This document shows, in pieces, positions 18,795 to 42,588 of a stretch of DNA of 48,049 nt; the stretch's first letter is position 1; each line of letters opens with the position of its first letter. A program made the translations under genes and the position numbers. The notes beneath the pieces were generated by a model. It saw nothing but the letters and a program-made list of their open reading frames with translations. It ran no database searches and was not told where the DNA came from. The DNA is from Arthrobacter sp. (lineage in GTDB: Bacteria > Actinomycetota > Actinomycetes > Actinomycetales > Micrococcaceae), in NCBI GenBank assembly GCA_029257465.1, contig JARIBG010000005.1, forward strand, positions 1 through 48,049, read 5' to 3'.

Positions 18795-19996
18795 CCACTC
18801 AGGTATTCGACCCACGCGAGGGCATCGACGAGAACGGCAGGATGGCACCCAAGGCGTACGACGCCGTCGTGCTCGCCTCCTTCGGCGGACCCGAGGGGCA
18901 GGACGACGTCATCCCGTTCCTGCGCAATGTCACACGCGGCCGCGGCATCCCCGACGAGCGCCTCGAGGAGGTCTCGCACCACTACCGGGCGTTCGGCGGT
19001 GTGAGTCCCATCAACGGCCAGAACCGGGCGTTGCGCGGTGCCATGGAGGCCGAGCTGCGCCGCCGCGGCATCGACCTGCCGGTCTACTGGGGCAACCGGA
19101 ACTGGGAGCCGTTCATCGCCGACACGCTGCAGGAGGCGTACGACGCCGGCCACCGCAGGGTGCTCGCCGTGACCACGAGTGCCTACTCCTGCTACTCGAG
19201 CTGCCGGCAGTACCGCGAGGATCTCGGGATGGCGCTGGTGAAGACGGGCCTCGAGGGTCGCCTCGAGGTGGACAAGGTACGCCAGTACTTCGACCACCCG
19301 GGCTTCGTGGAGCCCTTCGTCGAGGGCGTCACCGAGGGCCTCGCAGCGGTTCGTGCCGGCCTCGCCGAGCAGGGCACTCCCGAGGCTCCCGTGCACATCA
19401 TGTTCTCCACGCACTCCCTCCCCATGGGTGACGCGGAGGCCGCGGGTCCCCGCGACGCGGACGGCGGTCCGGCCTACGAGGAGGGTGCCTACGTGGCGCA
19501 GCATCTCGCGACCGCCCAGGCCGTCCTCGACCGCATCCCCGAGGCCGAAGGACTCGAGTGGTCGCTCGTCTACCAGTCGCGCTCCGGCGCCCCGCACATC
19601 CCCTGGCTCGAACCCGACATCAGCGACGCCCTCCGTGACCGCTACGAGCACGGTACGCGCGGCGTCGTCGTCGTGCCCCTCGGGTTCGTCTCCGACCACA
19701 TGGAGGTGGCCTGGGACCTCGACACCGAGGCGAGGCAGACCTGCGACGAGCTCGGCATCGTCATGGACCGCGTCCCGACGCCCGGCACCCACCGGAAGTT
19801 CGTCGAGGGCCTGATCGACCTGATCCTGGAGCGTACCGTCGAGCACAACATCGCCGAGCGTCCCTCGACGACGTCGCTGGGTCCCTGGTACGACGTCTGC
19901 CGCCCGAACTGCTGCGCCAACCGACGCGGGGAGAAGCCGACCGTCGCGGCCGTCGACTCCACCGTTGGCACACCGCTGCCGAACCCCGGCGAGTAA
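18791..19996 (+). CDS. hemH: Coproporphyrin ferrochelatase (HemH/CpfC)
   Basis: A 401-residue ferrochelatase inserting Fe2+ into coproporphyrin III. LASFGGPEGQDDVIPFL, HHYRAFGGVSPING, GNRNWEPF, FSTHSLPM (with the conserved catalytic His) and VVPLGFVSDHMEV are diagnostic. The C-terminus carries VCRPNCCANRRGEKP; together with Cys residues in SCYSSCRQY these are candidates for the [2Fe-2S] cluster known from some bacterial ferrochelatases, including the mycobacterial one. The GTG at 18791 overlaps the chdC stop (GTGA). The stop TAA shares one base with the hemC ATG (TAATG). It is annotated as coproporphyrin-type by pathway context. Confidence 0.94.
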   Translation: MTTQVFDPREGIDENGRMAPKAYDAVVLASFGGPEGQDDVIPFLRNVTRGRGIPDERLEEVSHHYRAFGGVSPINGQNRALRGAMEAELRRRGIDLPVYWGNRNWEPFIADTLQEAYDAGHRRVLAVTTSAYSCYSSCRQYREDLGMALVKTGLEGRLEVDKVRQYFDHPGFVEPFVEGVTEGLAAVRAGLAEQGTPEAPVHIMFSTHSLPMGDAEAAGPRDADGGPAYEEGAYVAQHLATAQAVLDRIPEAEGLEWSLVYQSRSGAPHIPWLEPDISDALRDRYEHGTRGVVVVPLGFVSDHMEVAWDLDTEARQTCDELGIVMDRVPTPGTHRKFVEGLIDLILERTVEHNIAERPSTTSLGPWYDVCRPNCCANRRGEKPTVAAVDSTVGTPLPNPGE

Positions 19997-20940
19997 TGAC
20001 GCCCATCAGGATCGGGACGCGGGGCAGTGCCCTGGCGATGACGCAGACGACGACGGTCGCCGAGAGGGTGTCCCAGCTCGCCGGTTCGCCCTACGAGCTC
20101 GTGCGGGTCCGGACCGAGGGGGACATCCTGAAGGGCTCGCTCTCACAGATCGGCGGCACCGGTGTCTTCGTCGCGGCACTGCGCGATGCAGTACTCCAGG
20201 AGCGCTGCGACCTCGCGGTGCACTCGCTCAAGGATCTCCCGACGCTGCCCGCGCCAGGTCTGACGCTCGGCGCGGTACCGGAGCGGGAGGACGTCCGCGA
20301 CGCCCTGTGCGCCCGGGACGGTCTCACCCTCGCCACGCTCCCCGACGGCGCGAAGGTGGGGACCGGCTCGCCGCGCCGCGCCGCGCAGCTGAGGGCCGCC
20401 CGACCGGGGATCGAGGTCGTGGACATCCGCGGCAATGTCGATACACGTCTCGGTCGCGTCGCAGGTCTGTTCAGCGGTGCTCCGGGAGATCTCGACGCCG
20501 TCGTCCTCGCCGCTGCCGGACTGCGTCGGTTGGGCCGCGAGAAGGTCATCACCGAACTCATCGATCCCGCCGTCATGCTGCCGGCGCCAGGTCAGGGAGC
20601 CCTGGCCGTGGAGCGCCGCGAGAGCGAGGCGGTGCCCGGCGTGCGGGAGGCACTGACGTCCTACGATCACCTGCCCACCCGGCTCGCCGTCACGGCGGAG
20701 CGCGCTGTCCTGTGGCGTCTCGAGGCCGGATGCAGTGCCCCCATCGGCGCTCTGGCACAGCTGCAGGGCGACGAGCTGGCCCTCGAGGCCGTGGTCTGCA
20801 GCCTGGACGGGCGATCGATCCTCCGACTGACCCGCTCTGCCCCTGCCGCGGACGCGGACGCCGCAGCCGACCTCGGGCGCGAGCTGGCCGATGACCTCCT
20901 CGCCGCGGGCGCGGCCGGCATCGCTCCGCTGACGATCTAG
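19996..20940 (+). CDS. hemC: Hydroxymethylbilane synthase (porphobilinogen deaminase)
   Basis: A 314-residue enzyme that polymerises four porphobilinogens to hydroxymethylbilane. RIGTRGSALAMTQT opens the protein. HSLKDLPTLPAPG, GTGSPRRAAQL, RGNVDTRLGRV and APGQGALAVE are the usual blocks, and RLEAGCSAPIGA carries the Cys that anchors the dipyrromethane cofactor. The ATG is formed by the TAATG overlap with hemH, so translation is probably coupled. It ends 6 nt before hemD. Confidence 0.96.
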   Translation: MTPIRIGTRGSALAMTQTTTVAERVSQLAGSPYELVRVRTEGDILKGSLSQIGGTGVFVAALRDAVLQERCDLAVHSLKDLPTLPAPGLTLGAVPEREDVRDALCARDGLTLATLPDGAKVGTGSPRRAAQLRAARPGIEVVDIRGNVDTRLGRVAGLFSGAPGDLDAVVLAAAGLRRLGREKVITELIDPAVMLPAPGQGALAVERRESEAVPGVREALTSYDHLPTRLAVTAERAVLWRLEAGCSAPIGALAQLQGDELALEAVVCSLDGRSILRLTRSAPAADADAAADLGRELADDLLAAGAAGIAPLTI

Positions 20941-20946
20941 GCTCCA

Positions 20947-22815
20947 GTGGCAGCTGAGGGGCCGATCCGGCCGGTGATCGTCCTGCGGCACCCCGCACGC
21001 TCCGTGCGCCTGCAGGCGGCCCTGGGGGCCGGCGGTTTCCCGGTGCTCGCGCTGCCGCTCACGGACACCGAACTGCCGGGAGACACCGACGCCGTCGTGC
21101 GTGAACTGGCGGCGCTCGGCCAGGGCGAGTACGCCTGGCTCGTGGTGACGAGCGGCAACACCGTACAGGCACTGGATCTGCTCGCCCGACGCTCCGGTAC
21201 CTCGGTGGCGGACGCCGTCCGCTCCGGGGGTGCCCGGGTAGTGGCGGTCGGAGCGGCCACCGCGGAACTGCTGAACGGTATCGACGTCGGGGTCGGGCTG
21301 ATCCCCGACGACGAATCCGCCGCCGGCATCCTGGACATCTTCCCCCGCGGAGCGGGTCGGGTCCTCCTGCCGCAGTCCGATCTCGCCCCCGGCGGTCTTC
21401 GCGCCGGACTGGAGCACCTCGGCTGGTCCGTGCGGCGCGTCGAGGCCTACCGCACCGTGGCGTATCCGGCCGCGCCGGAGCGACGGGTTCCCGGCGCCGA
21501 GGAGGCCGGCAGTCCGCCTCCGCTGCTCGGCATGAGCGATGCCCTCGACCTCCTGAGCGGTAGCGTGCGGCCCATCGTCGTCTTCACCGCGCCCAGCACC
21601 GTCCGGCAGTTCCGTGACAGGCTGGTGGGTGAGGGTGGCGCCGGTTCCGGCAGCTTCACGGCGGTCGCCATCGGCCGGACCACGGCAGCAGCACTGCGCG
21701 CCGAAGGGTGGGAACCGGCGGCGACGGCTGCCACGCCCACACCGGACGGCGTCGCCCGTGCCGTCCAGGACGCGGCCGGACGCACTCCCACCACAGATCA
21801 TTCGCTGAAGACCGAACGGAGATCGATCATGAGTTTCCCCCAGCACCGGCCGCGACGGCTGCGCTCCACACCCGCGATGCGCCGCATGGTCGCCGAGCAC
21901 AGGGTGCACCCGGCGGAGCTGATCCTGCCGGCGTTCATCCGCGAGGGCCTCACCGAGCCCTCACCCATCTCGTCCATGCCCGGCGTCGTGCAGCACACCA
22001 CCGACTCGCTCAGGCGGGCCGCGGCCGAGGCCGTGGAGCGCGGCGTGGGCGGCATCATGCTCTTCGGCATCCCCGAGCACCGCGACGCCACCGGCAGCGC
22101 GGGCATCGATCCCGACGGCGTCCTGAACAGGGCGATCGCCGACGTCAGGAGCGAGGTGGGGGACTCGCTCGTCGTGATGAGCGACGTCTGCCTCGACGAG
22201 TTCACCGATCACGGTCACTGCGGGGTGCTCGACGCCGACGGCGCCGTGGACAACGACGCCACCCTCGCCCTCTATGCCCGGATGGCCGTGGAGCAGGCCA
22301 ACGCCGGAGCGCACGTCCTCGGCCCGTCCGGGATGATGGACGGGCAGGTCGGCGTCATCCGGCAGGCCCTGGACGAGGCCGGCCACCAGGACACCACGGT
22401 GCTCGCCTACGCCGCGAAGTACGCCTCCGCCTTCTACGGGCCCTTCCGCGAAGCCGTCGACTCCCAGCTCACCGGTGACCGACGGACCTACCAGATGGAC
22501 GCGGCGAACCGCCGGGAAGCACTCCTCGAGGTGGAACTCGATCTCGAGGAGGGCGCCGACCTGGTGATGGTCAAGCCCGCGATGAGCTATCTCGACATCC
22601 TCGCCGATGTCGCTGCGATGTCGCCCGTGCCGGTGGCGGCCTACCAGATCTCGGGGGAGTACGCCATGATCGAGGCTGCCGCGGCGAACGGCTGGATCGA
22701 CCGGCGACGCGCCATCGAGGAGTCGGTCCTCGGCATCAAGCGCGCCGGTGCGCAGCTGATCCTCACCTACTGGGCTTCGGAGCTCGCGCTCTGGCTCGAT
22801 GACCACCACAGCTAA
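20947..22815 (+). CDS. hemDB: HemD-HemB fusion frame: uroporphyrinogen-III synthase plus porphobilinogen synthase
   Basis: One uninterrupted 622-codon frame. Residues 1-~270 are a HemD uroporphyrinogen-III synthase ([47 protein letters not shown]). A ~20-residue hydrophilic linker ([13 protein letters not shown]) leads to residues 295-622, a full-length HemB porphobilinogen synthase: [18 protein letters not shown] (metal-site region, with Asp at the middle Cys position of zinc enzymes), [14 protein letters not shown] and [11 protein letters not shown] with the Schiff-base Lys. The internal ATG at 21829 has GGAG 7 nt upstream, so separate HemB could also be made. The GTG at 20947 follows hemC by 6 nt. 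The usual state is two genes; the fusion may be real or reflect a 1-nt indel near the hemD end. Confidence 0.9.
21818..21831 (+). promoter_or_regulatory. hemB: Internal ribosome binding site and ATG for HemB
   Basis: GGAG (21818-21821), a 7-nt spacer and ATG (21829-21831) lie in frame inside the hemD-hemB reading frame. Translation from here yields a 328-residue HemB of normal length, so the locus may make both a fusion and free HemB. Confidence 0.65.
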
Positions 22816-22824
22816 GGAACCCTC

Positions 22825-24162
22825 ATGACCACGCCCTCCACGACGTCCGACACCCTGTACGAGCGCGCCCGCGCCCTCATGCCCGGCGGCGTCAATTCCC
22901 CCGTCCGCGCCTTCGGGTCGGTCGGCGGGACGCCGCGCTTCCTCGTCGATGCCCAGGGAGCCTATGTCACCGACGCCGACGGCACGCAGTACGTGGACCT
23001 CGTCGGTTCGTGGGGCCCGGCACTGCTGGGCCACTCGCATCCCGACGTCATCGCCGCCGTCCACCGCGCCGTGGACCACGGGCTCACCTTCGGGGCGTCC
23101 ACACCCGCCGAGGCCGATCTCGCGCAGCTGGTCCAGCAGCGCGTCCCCGCCGTCGAGCTCCTGCGCATGGTGTCCACCGGCACCGAGGCCACCATGACGG
23201 CCGTGCGCCTGGCCCGCGGATTCACGGGGCGGAATCTGATCGTGAAGTTCGCCGGGTGCTACCACGGGCACGTGGACAGTCTGCTCGCAGCGGCCGGATC
23301 GGGGGTCGCCACACTGGCGCTGCCCGGATCCGCGGGTGTCACGGAAGCGACGACGGCGGAGACCCTCGTGCTGCCGTACAACGACGTCGAAGCCGTCGAG
23401 GAAGCCTTCCGCACGCACGGCGAGAACATCGCCGCCATCATCACCGAGGCGGCTCCCGCGAATATGGGCGTGGTGACGCCGGCACCGGGATTCAACGCGT
23501 TCCTCAGCCGGATCAGCGCCGAGCACGGCGCATTGTTCATCGTCGACGAGGTCATGACCGGCTTCCGTACGCACCCCGGCGGGTACTGGAAGCTCACGGG
23601 TGGGGCGGACGACGCCGAGCACCCCTGGACCCCGGATCTGCTCACCTTCGGCAAGGTCATCGGCGGTGGCATCCCGGCCGCAGCGCTGGGCGGTCGCGCC
23701 GACGTCATGAATCACCTTGCCCCGATCGGGCCGGTGTACCAGGCGGGCACGCTGTCGGGGAATCCGATCGCCATGGCCGCCGGCGTCGCCACACTGACCG
23801 CCGCCACGGACGAGGTCTACCGCCACGTCGACGCGCGCTCCCTGGAACTGAGCCAGGCCCTCGCCGAGGCCCTCGCCGACGCCGGGGTGGACCACTCGAT
23901 CCAGCGGGCCGGGAATCTGTTCAGCGTCGCGTTCGGGACGTCGGCGCACGGGGTGTGGAACTATGCCGACGCACAGGGCCAGGAGGCGTTCCGGTACGGG
24001 CCGTTCTTCCACTCCATGCTCGACTCCGGTGTCTATCTGCCGCCGTCGGTGTACGAGGCGTGGTTCCTCTCGGCGGCGCACGACGACGCCGCGATGGAGC
24101 GGGTCCTGACGGCGCTGCCGGCGGCAGCCCGCGCTGCTGCGACGGCGGTCCCGGTCGACTGA
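22825..24162 (+). CDS. hemL: Glutamate-1-semialdehyde 2,1-aminomutase
   Basis: A 445-residue class III PLP aminotransferase that isomerises glutamate-1-semialdehyde to 5-aminolevulinate, acting directly after HemA. Conserved blocks are [65 protein letters not shown], and the PLP-binding Lys in [17 protein letters not shown]. The ATG at 22825 has AAGGAA upstream and is 9 nt from the hemB stop, so it is the last gene of the operon. Length is normal for the family. Confidence 0.96.
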
Positions 24163-24249: not shown

Positions 24250-24630
24250 TCAGACAGGCGCGAGATCGATGAGGTGTTCGACTCCGGCGAGGTCGATTGC
24301 ATTGCGCGTGTACAGGCGAGCCGAATGGGCGTGCGCCGTGGCGGCGATCAGCAGGTCCATGACGCCTGATCGGGGCTGCCGTCCGACCGCCGCGACGGCG
24401 GCGGCGAGTTGGCCATAGCTGGCGGCGACGTCATCATCGACGGGTAGAGCGTCGAATGTTCGTTGGAAATAGGACAGCCGGCGCAGTCGCTCCGCGCGGA
24501 TCGCCGTGTCGGCCGTGACCAGGACACCGAAGTGCAGTTCGGCCAACGAGGCGGAACTGATGGCCAACTCTCCGTCGAGCGGTGGTACGTCGGTAGCAAT
24601 AAGGACACTTGTGTCGAGAATCGCCTTCAC
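24250..24630 (-). CDS. PIN-domain toxin of a type II TA module (VapC-like)
   Basis: A 126-residue PIN-domain protein, expected to be a metal-dependent RNase. The acidic residues are in place: Asp in AILDTSVLI, Glu in ASLAELHFG, Asp in VMDLLIAATA, and the TRNAIDLAG end motif. The GTG at 24630 overlaps the antitoxin stop by 4 nt (GTGA). The longer in-frame extension to 24744 is antitoxin coding sequence in another frame. Downstream it converges on hemL. The RNA target is not predictable. Confidence 0.92.
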   Translation of the reverse strand: MKAILDTSVLIATDVPPLDGELAISSASLAELHFGVLVTADTAIRAERLRRLSYFQRTFDALPVDDDVAASYGQLAAAVAAVGRQPRSGVMDLLIAATAHAHSARLYTRNAIDLAGVEHLIDLAPV

Positions 24631-24878
24631 ACGCGGGGTTCCCACGGGTCCAGGACGGCTTGATCGAGCAGGGTGCGATCGCGCTCCCAGTCCGGGTCGC
24701 CCCGACCTGCGAATGCATCGGCGATGTTCTCCCACCGTTGCCACCGCTTCGGAGTAGCAGGGATGATGCGGGCGGCGAGGCGCCCGGACACGGTGATCTC
24801 GATCTCCTCGCCGCTTTCGGCCCGACGCACTAGCTCAGAGGCGTCCTGTCGTAATTCGCGCAGCCCGACGGTTTCCAT
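24627..24878 (-). CDS. Phd/YefM-type antitoxin
   Basis: An 83-residue antitoxin. METVGLRELRQDASELVRRA, followed by GEEIEITVSGRLAARIIP, is the prevent-host-death/YefM fold that binds DNA as a dimer; the C-terminal ~30 residues would wrap the toxin. The ATG at 24878 is 6 nt after the -10 hexamer TACTAT. The stop overlaps the toxin start. Autoregulation through the palindrome at 24889-24902 is likely. Confidence 0.92.
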   Translation of the reverse strand: METVGLRELRQDASELVRRAESGEEIEITVSGRLAARIIPATPKRWQRWENIADAFAGRGDPDWERDRTLLDQAVLDPWEPRV

Positions 24879-25019: not shown

Positions 25020-25445
25020 TCAGGCGCTCGGCGTCGTGTCCCATGGGTTGAGGCAGAGGACGCCGAGGGGCTCGAAGTGTCTGGTGTTCCGCGTCGCGAT
25101 GGTCATTCCTAGGGACTGGGCTACGGCGGCGATGAGGGCGTCGTCGAACGGTGTATGCTCCGGTACCCGATACCCTGCGAGAACCCGGGCCGCCGCGAGG
25201 TCGAAGGACAGCACTCGGTCGGCGAACGCGGGCAGGACGTTCTCCGTGAACCAGCGGCGCAGCACCTTCCCCTGCGCGGCGTCCGATCGCTCCCGGGCGA
25301 TCACCCCTCGCTCGATCTCCGCGATGGTGAAGGCTGAGACGAACTGGTCACCGAGGGGAACCGATGCGGCCCACACCTCGACGGGCCGGTTGCGGCCGCG
25401 GACGCGCAGCGCAGAGACGACGTTGGTGTCCAGGACGTACTTCAC
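25020..25445 (-). CDS. PIN-domain toxin of a second type II TA module (FitB/VapC-like)
   Basis: A 141-residue PIN-domain toxin. [11 protein letters not shown] carries the first Asp, [12 protein letters not shown] the Glu, [15 protein letters not shown] the second Asp, and [13 protein letters not shown] is the usual end motif of the FitB/VapC branch. The ATG at 25445 overlaps the upstream antitoxin stop (ATGA). It is unrelated to the neighbouring toxin beyond the fold, so this is a separate module rather than a duplication. Confidence 0.92.
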
Positions 25446-25669
25446 AGATCTGCCGAGCGGGCCGTCAGTCCGAGGCGGTCTGGTTCGAAGTCGATGTCGG
25501 CACCGTCGTCGGTTCCCAGAAGGTCGACGATGGTGACGGGCTCGTCCTCCAGGGCCCTGGTGAGCATCTCGCGCACCTCAGCCTCCACCGAGCGGTGACG
25601 CACTTTGGCACGCGCGCGCAGCGCGGCCTTGGTTCCCGCAGGAAGGTTGCGGATCAGAATCTGTTCCAT
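25442..25669 (-). CDS. FitA-like ribbon-helix-helix antitoxin
   Basis: A 75-residue antitoxin. [20 protein letters not shown], followed by [16 protein letters not shown], is the FitA/Arc ribbon-helix-helix fold; the acidic C-terminal part ([14 protein letters not shown]) should neutralise the toxin. The ATG at 25669 is preferred over an in-frame start at 25777 because AAGGTGG lies 8 nt upstream and the family begins here. Confidence 0.9.
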
Positions 25670-25683
25670 AGGTGACCACCTTC

Positions 25684-25703
25684 GATATCGATTCCACGAT
25701 ATC
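25684..25703. promoter_or_regulatory. Palindromic operator candidate of the second TA operon
   Basis: GATATCG-6 nt-CGATATC, perfect 7-bp arms, lies 15 nt upstream of the antitoxin ATG. Ribbon-helix-helix antitoxins of the FitA type bind inverted repeats of this layout. Confidence 0.65.
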
Positions 25704-25819
25704 AGTGCCGGATCGGATCGCTCTGACAACAGCAGAGCGGCCTTCGAAGGACCGCACCGCGCCGGTCGTCCGAGCACGCAGTGCTGGTCGCAGGCTTCAA
25801 TCCATAGGAGAGTTGATCC

Positions 25820-41019: not shown

Positions 41020-42588
41020 CTACCGGGCGGGATTCTCCCCGTCACCGTCACCGTCACCGTCACCGTCACCGGCGCCCGAGCCGTTGCCCGAGCCGTTGCC
41101 GCTGGGTCGGTCATCATCATCGTCCGCGTCGGCCGTGTCGGCCGCGTCGTCGGACACGGTGTCCGGTCCGTTCTCCGGGCCCGGCTGCGTTGTCGGGTCC
41201 TGGGCCGCGTCCTCACTGTCTGCTGCGCCCGGCTCATCCTGGTCCTCGAAGTCGCCCGCGAGCAGGCGTTCGAGAGCCGCGTCCACGTCGGCGTCGGAGG
41301 ACTCGATCAGGCGGCGTCGCTCGGAGAAGCCCGCAGGGTCGTCGAGGTCCTCGGCCGTGGGCAGCAGGTCCGGGTGCTGCCAGAGCGCGTCGCGGCCCGC
41401 GATGCCTCGTTCATCGGTGAGCAGCGACCACAGTGCGGCCGCGTCGCGCAGTCTCCGCGGGCGCAGTTCCAGCCCGACGAGCGAGGCGAAGGCGTGCTCC
41501 GCGGGACCACCTGTTGCACGGCGACGTCGGAGCATCTCGCGCAGTGCTTCGGCAGAGGGCAGATTGGCGGCGGCAGCAGCTGTGAGTTCGTCGACCCAAC
41601 CCTCCACGAGGGCGAGGGTGGTCTCCAGCCGGATGAGTGCGGCTTCCTGCTCCGGCGTGCGCTCGGGCATGAACACGCCCTGGGAGAGGGCGCCCTGCAT
41701 GCTCTCCGGATTGGTCGGATCGATGTCGCGCGCGGCTTCCTCGATCTTGCTGATGTCGATGTGGATGCCGCGGGCGTACCGCTCGATGCTGCCGAGCAGG
41801 TGCCCGGTGAGCCAGGGGACCTGGGTGAAGAGACGCACGTGGGCCGCCTCACGGACGGCGAGGAACAGCTGCACCTCCTGCTCCGGGATATCGAGACCGG
41901 CGCCGAAGGCGCTCACGTTGGCGGGCAGGAGGGCCATGCGACCGTCCGCGAGGGGCACGCCGATGTCCGTGGACCCCACCACATCCTTGGACAGGGCGCC
42001 GACGGCCTGGCCGAGCTGCATGCCGAACATGGCACCACCGACGTTCTGCAGCATCGACGCCGGTCCGCCCATGGAGCCGAGCATCGATTTCATCTCCTCG
42101 GGCAGTTGCTGGGAGATCACATCGGAGAGCGCCTTGGCAATGCTCGTCGCGACGGGCTCGGTCAGTCGTCGCCAGGTCGCCATGGTCGCCTCGACCCATT
42201 CGGCACGGGACCACGCACGACCGAGCTGGCCCGTCGTGGGGAAGTCGGTGACCGGGTCGAGCCACAGTTCGGCGAGCTTCAGCGCCTCGTCGACGCTCCT
42301 GCGCTGCAGTGAGGAGACCGAGGGATCGTTGTCCGCGGCCGCGATCCTCCTCGCCTGCTCGTGCGCCAGCTGCCAGTTGACGGGTCCGTCGCTCGAGCTG
42401 GAGAACATCGCCTGGACCTGCTGCATCATCATGGCCATCGCGGACGGATCGGAGGGCAGCCCTGCAGCCTTGGCAAGCTCCTGCGGATCGAAGCCTCCGG
42501 CACCTCCGCCGAACATCTTCGACAGCATCTCGGACAGGGGATCCTGGGGTGTGTCGTCGTCGTTCGAGGGGTTGGGCACTGATACCAC
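41020..42588 (-). CDS. DUF2342 zinc-dependent metalloprotease-like protein
   Basis: A 522-residue protein of the actinobacterial DUF2342 / 'zinc-dependent metalloprotease' family. The conserved core runs from about residue 70 (VNWQLAHEQARRIAA) through RAEWVEATMATWRRL to FLAVREAAHVRLFTQVPWL, whose EAAH is the putative metal site, then ARDIDPTNPESMQGALSQG. The N-terminus is Met/Gly-rich and the last ~80 residues are acidic and repetitive, ending in GDGDGDGDGDG. No signal peptide is seen, and proteolytic activity is not proven for the family. The GTG at 42588 is given; a GTG at 42579 is an alternative. It is convergent with the YgjP-like gene. Confidence 0.9.
   Translation of the reverse strand: MVSVPNPSNDDDTPQDPLSEMLSKMFGGGAGGFDPQELAKAAGLPSDPSAMAMMMQQVQAMFSSSSDGPVNWQLAHEQARRIAAADNDPSVSSLQRRSVDEALKLAELWLDPVTDFPTTGQLGRAWSRAEWVEATMATWRRLTEPVATSIAKALSDVISQQLPEEMKSMLGSMGGPASMLQNVGGAMFGMQLGQAVGALSKDVVGSTDIGVPLADGRMALLPANVSAFGAGLDIPEQEVQLFLAVREAAHVRLFTQVPWLTGHLLGSIERYARGIHIDISKIEEAARDIDPTNPESMQGALSQGVFMPERTPEQEAALIRLETTLALVEGWVDELTAAAAANLPSAEALREMLRRRRATGGPAEHAFASLVGLELRPRRLRDAAALWSLLTDERGIAGRDALWQHPDLLPTAEDLDDPAGFSERRRLIESSDADVDAALERLLAGDFEDQDEPGAADSEDAAQDPTTQPGPENGPDTVSDDAADTADADDDDDRPSGNGSGNGSGAGDGDGDGDGDGENPAR
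41041..41070. repeat. Hexanucleotide microsatellite (gtcacc)x5
   Basis: Five perfect head-to-tail copies of gtcacc on the plus strand encode the Gly-Asp repeat at the C-terminus of the DUF2342 protein. Just beyond, a 12-bp unit (gcccgagccgtt) is duplicated. Both unit lengths are multiples of three, so the frame is kept on expansion. Confidence 0.95.

Follow-up and report, generated by a model that had tools for sequence, protein, structure and literature searches.

Several gene fusions that join neighbouring enzymes of haem and uroporphyrinogen biosynthesis have been described. HemC-HemD and CobA-HemD fusions are listed in PMC4921024, and PMC11237513 lists CobA-HemD, HemC with CobA-HemD and, in one Sulfolobus assembly, a HemA-HemB fusion; an ahb-nirDH fusion is mentioned in PMC3004389. 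As a spacing between genes, the NTGA overlap is by a wide margin the most frequent according to PMC12548453 and PMC10666635. The pairing of HemD with HemB was not reported among the open-licence papers listed, at the level of titles and opening lines of abstracts, nor in the available parts of PMC4921024, PMC11237513 and PMC3004389.

Here we analysed a stretch of 48,049 nucleotides from an Arthrobacter sp. (hereafter the window), which is contig C164 of a 2.43-Mb draft assembly; the draft comprises 187 contigs and is 84% complete. The haem operon in the window was read in the order hemY, hemQ, hemH, hemC, hemD, hemB and hemL, and hemD and hemB were found in a single reading frame (Table 1).

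The hemD-hemB frame and its surroundings

The first-pass annotation had described hemD and hemB as one continuous frame, with HemD occupying residues 1 to about 270 ahead of a short hydrophilic linker, and both points were borne out by the sequence. The Pfam search placed HEM4 at residues 21-269 and ALAD at residues 300-616 of the fused product, both near full length, and the HemB part begins at residue 295. In particular, the HemD part matched the uroporphyrinogen-III synthase family PF02602 with 125.4 bits against a gathering score of 27.5 (profile positions 2-229 of 231), and the HemB part matched the porphobilinogen synthase family PF00490 with 457.8 bits (positions 2-317 of 317). The HemB part additionally scored 473 bits with NF006762, for which the cut-off is 297, and alignment with the solved chain 1w1z_A revealed that the motifs AKYAS-FYGPF and MVKP are retained; we take the two lysines in these motifs to be the active-site lysines of porphobilinogen synthase. 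The best score among the NCBIfam uroporphyrinogen-III synthase equivalogs was 47.1 bits against a cut-off of 365 (NF004594); these HemD models are narrow, so the low score lowers solely the claim of membership in those subgroups.

Table 1. Positions of the features in the window
Feature	Coordinates	Strand	Observation
hemC (hydroxymethylbilane synthase)	19996..20940	+	Porphobil_deam and Porphobil_deamC; TAG at 20938-20940, 6 nt before the hemD GTG
Fused hemD-hemB frame	20947..22815	+	GTG at 20947, TAA at 22813-22815; 622 codons, 622 aa
HemD domain (uroporphyrinogen-III synthase)	20947..21753	+	HEM4; GTG start with weak binding site, -2.0 kcal/mol
Tail/linker	21754..21828	+	25 codons without a stop; first 19 in apparent near-neutral drift, last 6 the conserved binding site
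Out-of-frame TGA	21806..21808	+	Not the difference between the window and the sister species
Junction codon	21808..21810	+	Window AAG; sister G017 TAG, the stop of its hemD; G011 CAG, fused
GGAG (hemB ribosome-binding site), within the frame of hemD	21818..21821	+	7 nt 5' of ATG 21829; -8.7 kcal/mol; conserved in the clade
HemB (porphobilinogen synthase)	21829..22815	+	Own ATG and TAA; ALAD; NF006762 above cut-off
hemL, next operon gene	22825..24162	+	Aminotran_3
Antisense open frame, 588 codons	20143..21909	-	With the next, opposite hemC-hemD-hemB-hemL
Antisense open frame, 706 codons	21961..24081	-
Two PIN-domain proteins and one FitA-like ribbon-helix-helix protein	24253..24744, 25023..25445, 25445..25777	-	Just downstream of hemL
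Perfect 6-nt tandem array, CCGTCA	41039..41071		5.5 copies

The operon names rest on matches to Amino_oxidase, Chlor_dismutase, Porphobil_deam, HEM4, ALAD and Aminotran_3. The name hemY was given from the family and the place in the operon, hemH is presumed from its sequence, and hemL is our assumption from the Aminotran_3 family and its place. Two known arrangements were not found in the window: hemC ends at its own TAG and is not fused to hemD, and hemD has no stop with which it could form an NTGA-coupled pair with hemB. The two long antisense frames are most likely by-products of high GC. The PIN-domain and FitA-like genes are probably toxin-antitoxin genes, with one PIN protein adjoining its likely antitoxin. 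A short tandem array was also present elsewhere in the window (Table 1).

Junctions and distribution among relatives

The hemD 3' ends of close relatives were compared, as the first-pass annotation had proposed. The nearest species by the seven haem genes (G017, 88% identical) aligned across the junction without an indel, and in place of the window's AAG codon G017 has TAG, which ends its hemD. A further species, G011, is fused like the window and carries CAG at this codon; its genome is rated 99% complete. In G001, 7 nt are missing in this region, which puts hemD in another frame, where it ends as an ATGA overlap. The annotation had also pointed to a TGA one frame away as the place where a single-base change could create or remove the fusion. 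This TGA is present, but the gap-free alignment with G017 gave no support for a 1-nt indel there as what separates the fused from the unfused state. The broader idea that one base can set the fusion held in two forms, as the single substitution against G017 and as a 1-nt difference, the latter in another genus (g27, Kocuria-like, which includes Kocuria coralli) rather than here.

Of the 38 genomes of the window genus, which is that of Arthrobacter agilis, 36 gave any match and 2 had the two domains joined in a single row with no stop. Among the 29 of 30 genus loci in which both genes were located, 16 had an ATGA overlap, 2 were fused, 10 had a hemD stop ending no more than 35 nt before hemB, and 1 had it 157 nt before; the junctions of G028 and the Arthrobacter agilis record L034 were identical. 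The 27 genomes of g27 comprised 9 fused, 16 separate and 2 unclassified cases, where the fusion of G262 was the same as that of L053, the basis for reading the genus as Kocuria, and in one of the fused genomes (G344) the contig stops partway through hemB. A natural gene fusion, with one frame holding both domains in independent genomes, was found in G000 (the genome of the window), G011 and nine g27 genomes, and a Pfam scan of 6 further fused proteins revealed both domains in each. In a third genus, G324 (L116) also has hemD and hemB in one frame; it was left out of the firm fused genomes because 4 bases in the region are unread. In the family sample (395 genomes, 392 with a match), which led to the g27 fusions, all but about 34 of the matched genomes were looked at, and many were classed solely by the two domains joining in one row or by open-frame length. 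In the phylum sample, where 185 of 246 genomes had a match, the window alone was joined without a stop among the rows listed.

An open frame that extends upstream of hemB is unremarkable by itself in such GC-rich DNA; in several unfused relatives (L010, L011, L013, L015, L019, L027 and L030), the hemB frame stays open for 106 to 261 codons upstream. The feature that exceeds chance openness of this kind is a hemD frame that coincides with the frame of hemB and has no stop, as in 2 of the 38 genus genomes. The length of the hemB frame was tried as a marker of fusion and rejected. A screen of 160 family genomes gave 12 long frames (574-1117 codons) that were fetched, in 11 of which hemD was separate and in one of which (L177) there was no hemD match; hemD was also separate in seven further long frames (L120-L126). 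Of 12 long hemB frames from the phylum sample, 7 had hemD in a different frame and 1 had it in the hemB frame but separated by a stop, while the other 4 gave no match to hemD. For L212 and L215, the search gave lengths of 891 and 691 and direct reading gave 335 and 385, and reading further downstream did not explain the difference.

Two loci of these surveys were of a different nature. In a distant phylum genome (L219 of G638, positions 113-2250), hemB overlaps the next gene by ATGA, a tightly coupled hemB of another kind; the product of that gene carries CxxxCxxC and is presumably radical-SAM-like. At G026:C32:13871-15696, hemD and hemB match in five pieces, which looks like indel errors of assembly.

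The seven-gene tree grouped the species closest to the window as ((G000 fused, G017 separate),(G011 fused, G001 separate)), with a support of 99-100 at each fork; this tree is equally compatible with a single fusion that was lost twice and with two separate gains. With hemB alone, the four-species clade was left unresolved. On the g27 hemB tree, from which the two unclassed genomes were left out, at least 4 changes of state were required. In the junctions that were compared base by base, a single base or a short indel sets the fused apart from the separate form. In one g27 sub-clade, six fused genomes have 1 nt more between the binding site and the GTG than two separate genomes, in which hemD ends in a GTGA overlap. 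The tails of the six fused genomes measure 114, 114, 147, 174, 192 and 246 nt, all multiples of three, and those of the two separate relatives measure 122 and 134 nt and share one frame.

Repeats were observed in the hemD tails of other genomes. Growth by tandem repeats of a 12-nt unit, CTCAGCACCTAC or CTCAGCACCCAC, was seen in G032 and G020 (L011, L013), and a 15-nt unit coding PTTPF is repeated in G315 of g27 (L148).

Probable stop loss, the tail and the internal hemB start

We consider it probable that the locus represents a real, recurrent and weakly constrained stop-loss fusion, from which both HemD-HemB and free HemB would be made. The starting point would be the usual arrangement of the relatives, an overlapping (ATGA/GTGA) or few-base-wide junction in the haem operon, with the hemB binding site within or beside the hemD 3' end and with the hemD end past the HemD domain acting as a drifting, stop-poor tail. 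A base change that removes the stop, or a short indel that shifts hemD into the hemB frame, would then let translation read on into hemB and would leave the hemB binding site untouched. Initiation at the weak hemD GTG would yield the fusion of 622 aa, and initiation at the internal ATG would yield free HemB (328 aa), the more abundant of the two products. If both products are active, gain or loss of the fusion would be nearly neutral. In the relatives with NTGA pairs, termination-reinitiation may couple the two genes (PMC10666635, PMC12548453).

The substitution pattern is consistent with this near-neutrality. Between G000 and G011, pN and pS were 0.143 and 0.37 for HemD, 0.291 and 0.38 for the 19 tail codons, and 0.011 and 0.23 for HemB, while in the six binding-site codons 0 of about 5 synonymous sites and one nonsynonymous site had changed. 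Between G000 and G017, the tail was slower (pN 0.17, pS 0.16) and the six binding-site codons were identical; these comparisons are based on 18-19 codons for the tail and 6 for the binding site. As judged from these counts, the tail appears to drift near-neutrally and has no clear protein-level constraint, while the hemB site appears frozen in the window clade. Such a drifting tail, together with a state that differs between sister species, fits near-neutrality.

No support was found for a function in tethering the two enzymes, which the first-pass annotation had raised. In its fuller form, the fusion would be a selected bifunctional enzyme, in which HemD carried on HemB oligomers fixes the ratio of the two or aids the capture of hydroxymethylbilane through a HemB-HemC-HemD assembly. 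Recurrence in two genera speaks for this, as do the six fused species of one Kocuria sub-clade whose tails differ by multiples of three, a pattern that we counted against the near-neutral reading and that could mean selection for the fusion in that sub-clade. The same pattern could nevertheless arise from repeat slippage in threes, and the two separate relatives in the sub-clade share one frame too. Moreover, the state differs inside both sister pairs around the window, and the tail evolves near-neutrally. HemC works between HemB and HemD, so the two joined steps are non-consecutive and there is no obvious channel to be gained from joining them. We regard a selected enzyme as improbable. A combined picture, in which a working two-product gene places a few HemD domains on HemB oligomers, lineages switch by single-base changes between the fusion and coupled separate genes, and selection has maintained the fusion in at least one Kocuria sub-clade, would also fit the sequences, and we hold it to be a speculative idea with a small chance of being right.

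The preferred reading, with two products, depends on the internal hemB start. Binding energies were calculated for the duplex of the 20 nt before each start with the 16S tail CCUCCUUUCU; a 16S tail ending in CCTCCTTTCT was found exactly in 31 of the 38 genus genomes, and it was not found in the window's own draft. The GGAG that the first-pass annotation had noticed before the internal ATG gave a far stronger site than the hemD GTG (Table 1). Among 108 internal start codons within the operon genes, 5 reached this energy, as did 5% of 2000 random positions, so the strength of the site is no more than suggestive by itself, and its conservation carries more weight. The four clade species are identical over columns -19 to -3 ahead of the ATG, while the columns further upstream vary, and all 11 firm fused genomes retain an in-frame hemB start whose binding site scores between -7.9 and -9.3 kcal/mol. 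Given this retained start and strong site, fusion plus free HemB, which the annotation had offered as what the locus could make, is the likely output as predicted from the sequence. That the fusion is instead the sole product and the internal site a relic is very unlikely. No direct observation speaks for a relic; the site does sit within a translated frame, and equally strong sites occur at about 5% of random positions, but its retention in the 11 fused genomes, the lack of any synonymous-position change at the site in the window clade and the weak hemD start all argue against it.

Although the draft genome behind the window is split into 187 contigs, a sequencing or binning error is a highly improbable source of the continuous frame, since an independent genome (G011) is fused with CAG at the same codon, the junction aligns without an indel to that of G017, which is 88% identical over seven genes, and nine fused genomes occur in another genus. 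A frameshift error as the source of the open frame was rejected on the gap-free alignment with G017. With error unlikely on these grounds, we read the fusion in the window as real and not as a draft artefact.

Relation to known fusions and coupled gene pairs

Close species carry the same enzyme pair both fused and separate, with the deciding bases visible, so that this set of species allows a test of what is lost or gained when enzymes of non-consecutive steps are fused. The locus also bears on annotation; a gene finder that calls one long porphobilinogen synthase here would mask the second start.

Compared with the known systems, the HemD-HemB fusion resembles HemC-HemD and CobA-HemD in that neighbouring enzymes of the uroporphyrinogen pathway are fused. 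Those fusions join consecutive steps, whereas HemD-HemB skips HemC. The HemA-HemB fusion of Sulfolobus is similar in that HemB is joined to another early haem enzyme; it differs in the partner, and it is archaeal and known from a single assembly. HemD is likewise part of a longer fusion in HemD/HemX (NF005411), but HemX is not HemB, and one Kocuria fusion matched this model weakly, with 33 bits against a cut-off of 414. The NTGA-overlapping, translationally coupled pair is the type present in 16 of the 29 genus loci and absent in the window, where hemD has no stop and termination-reinitiation cannot occur at the junction. We place the hemD-hemB frame with the haem-pathway gene fusions, as one that would arise through stop loss or a frame shift and in which the internal start is kept.
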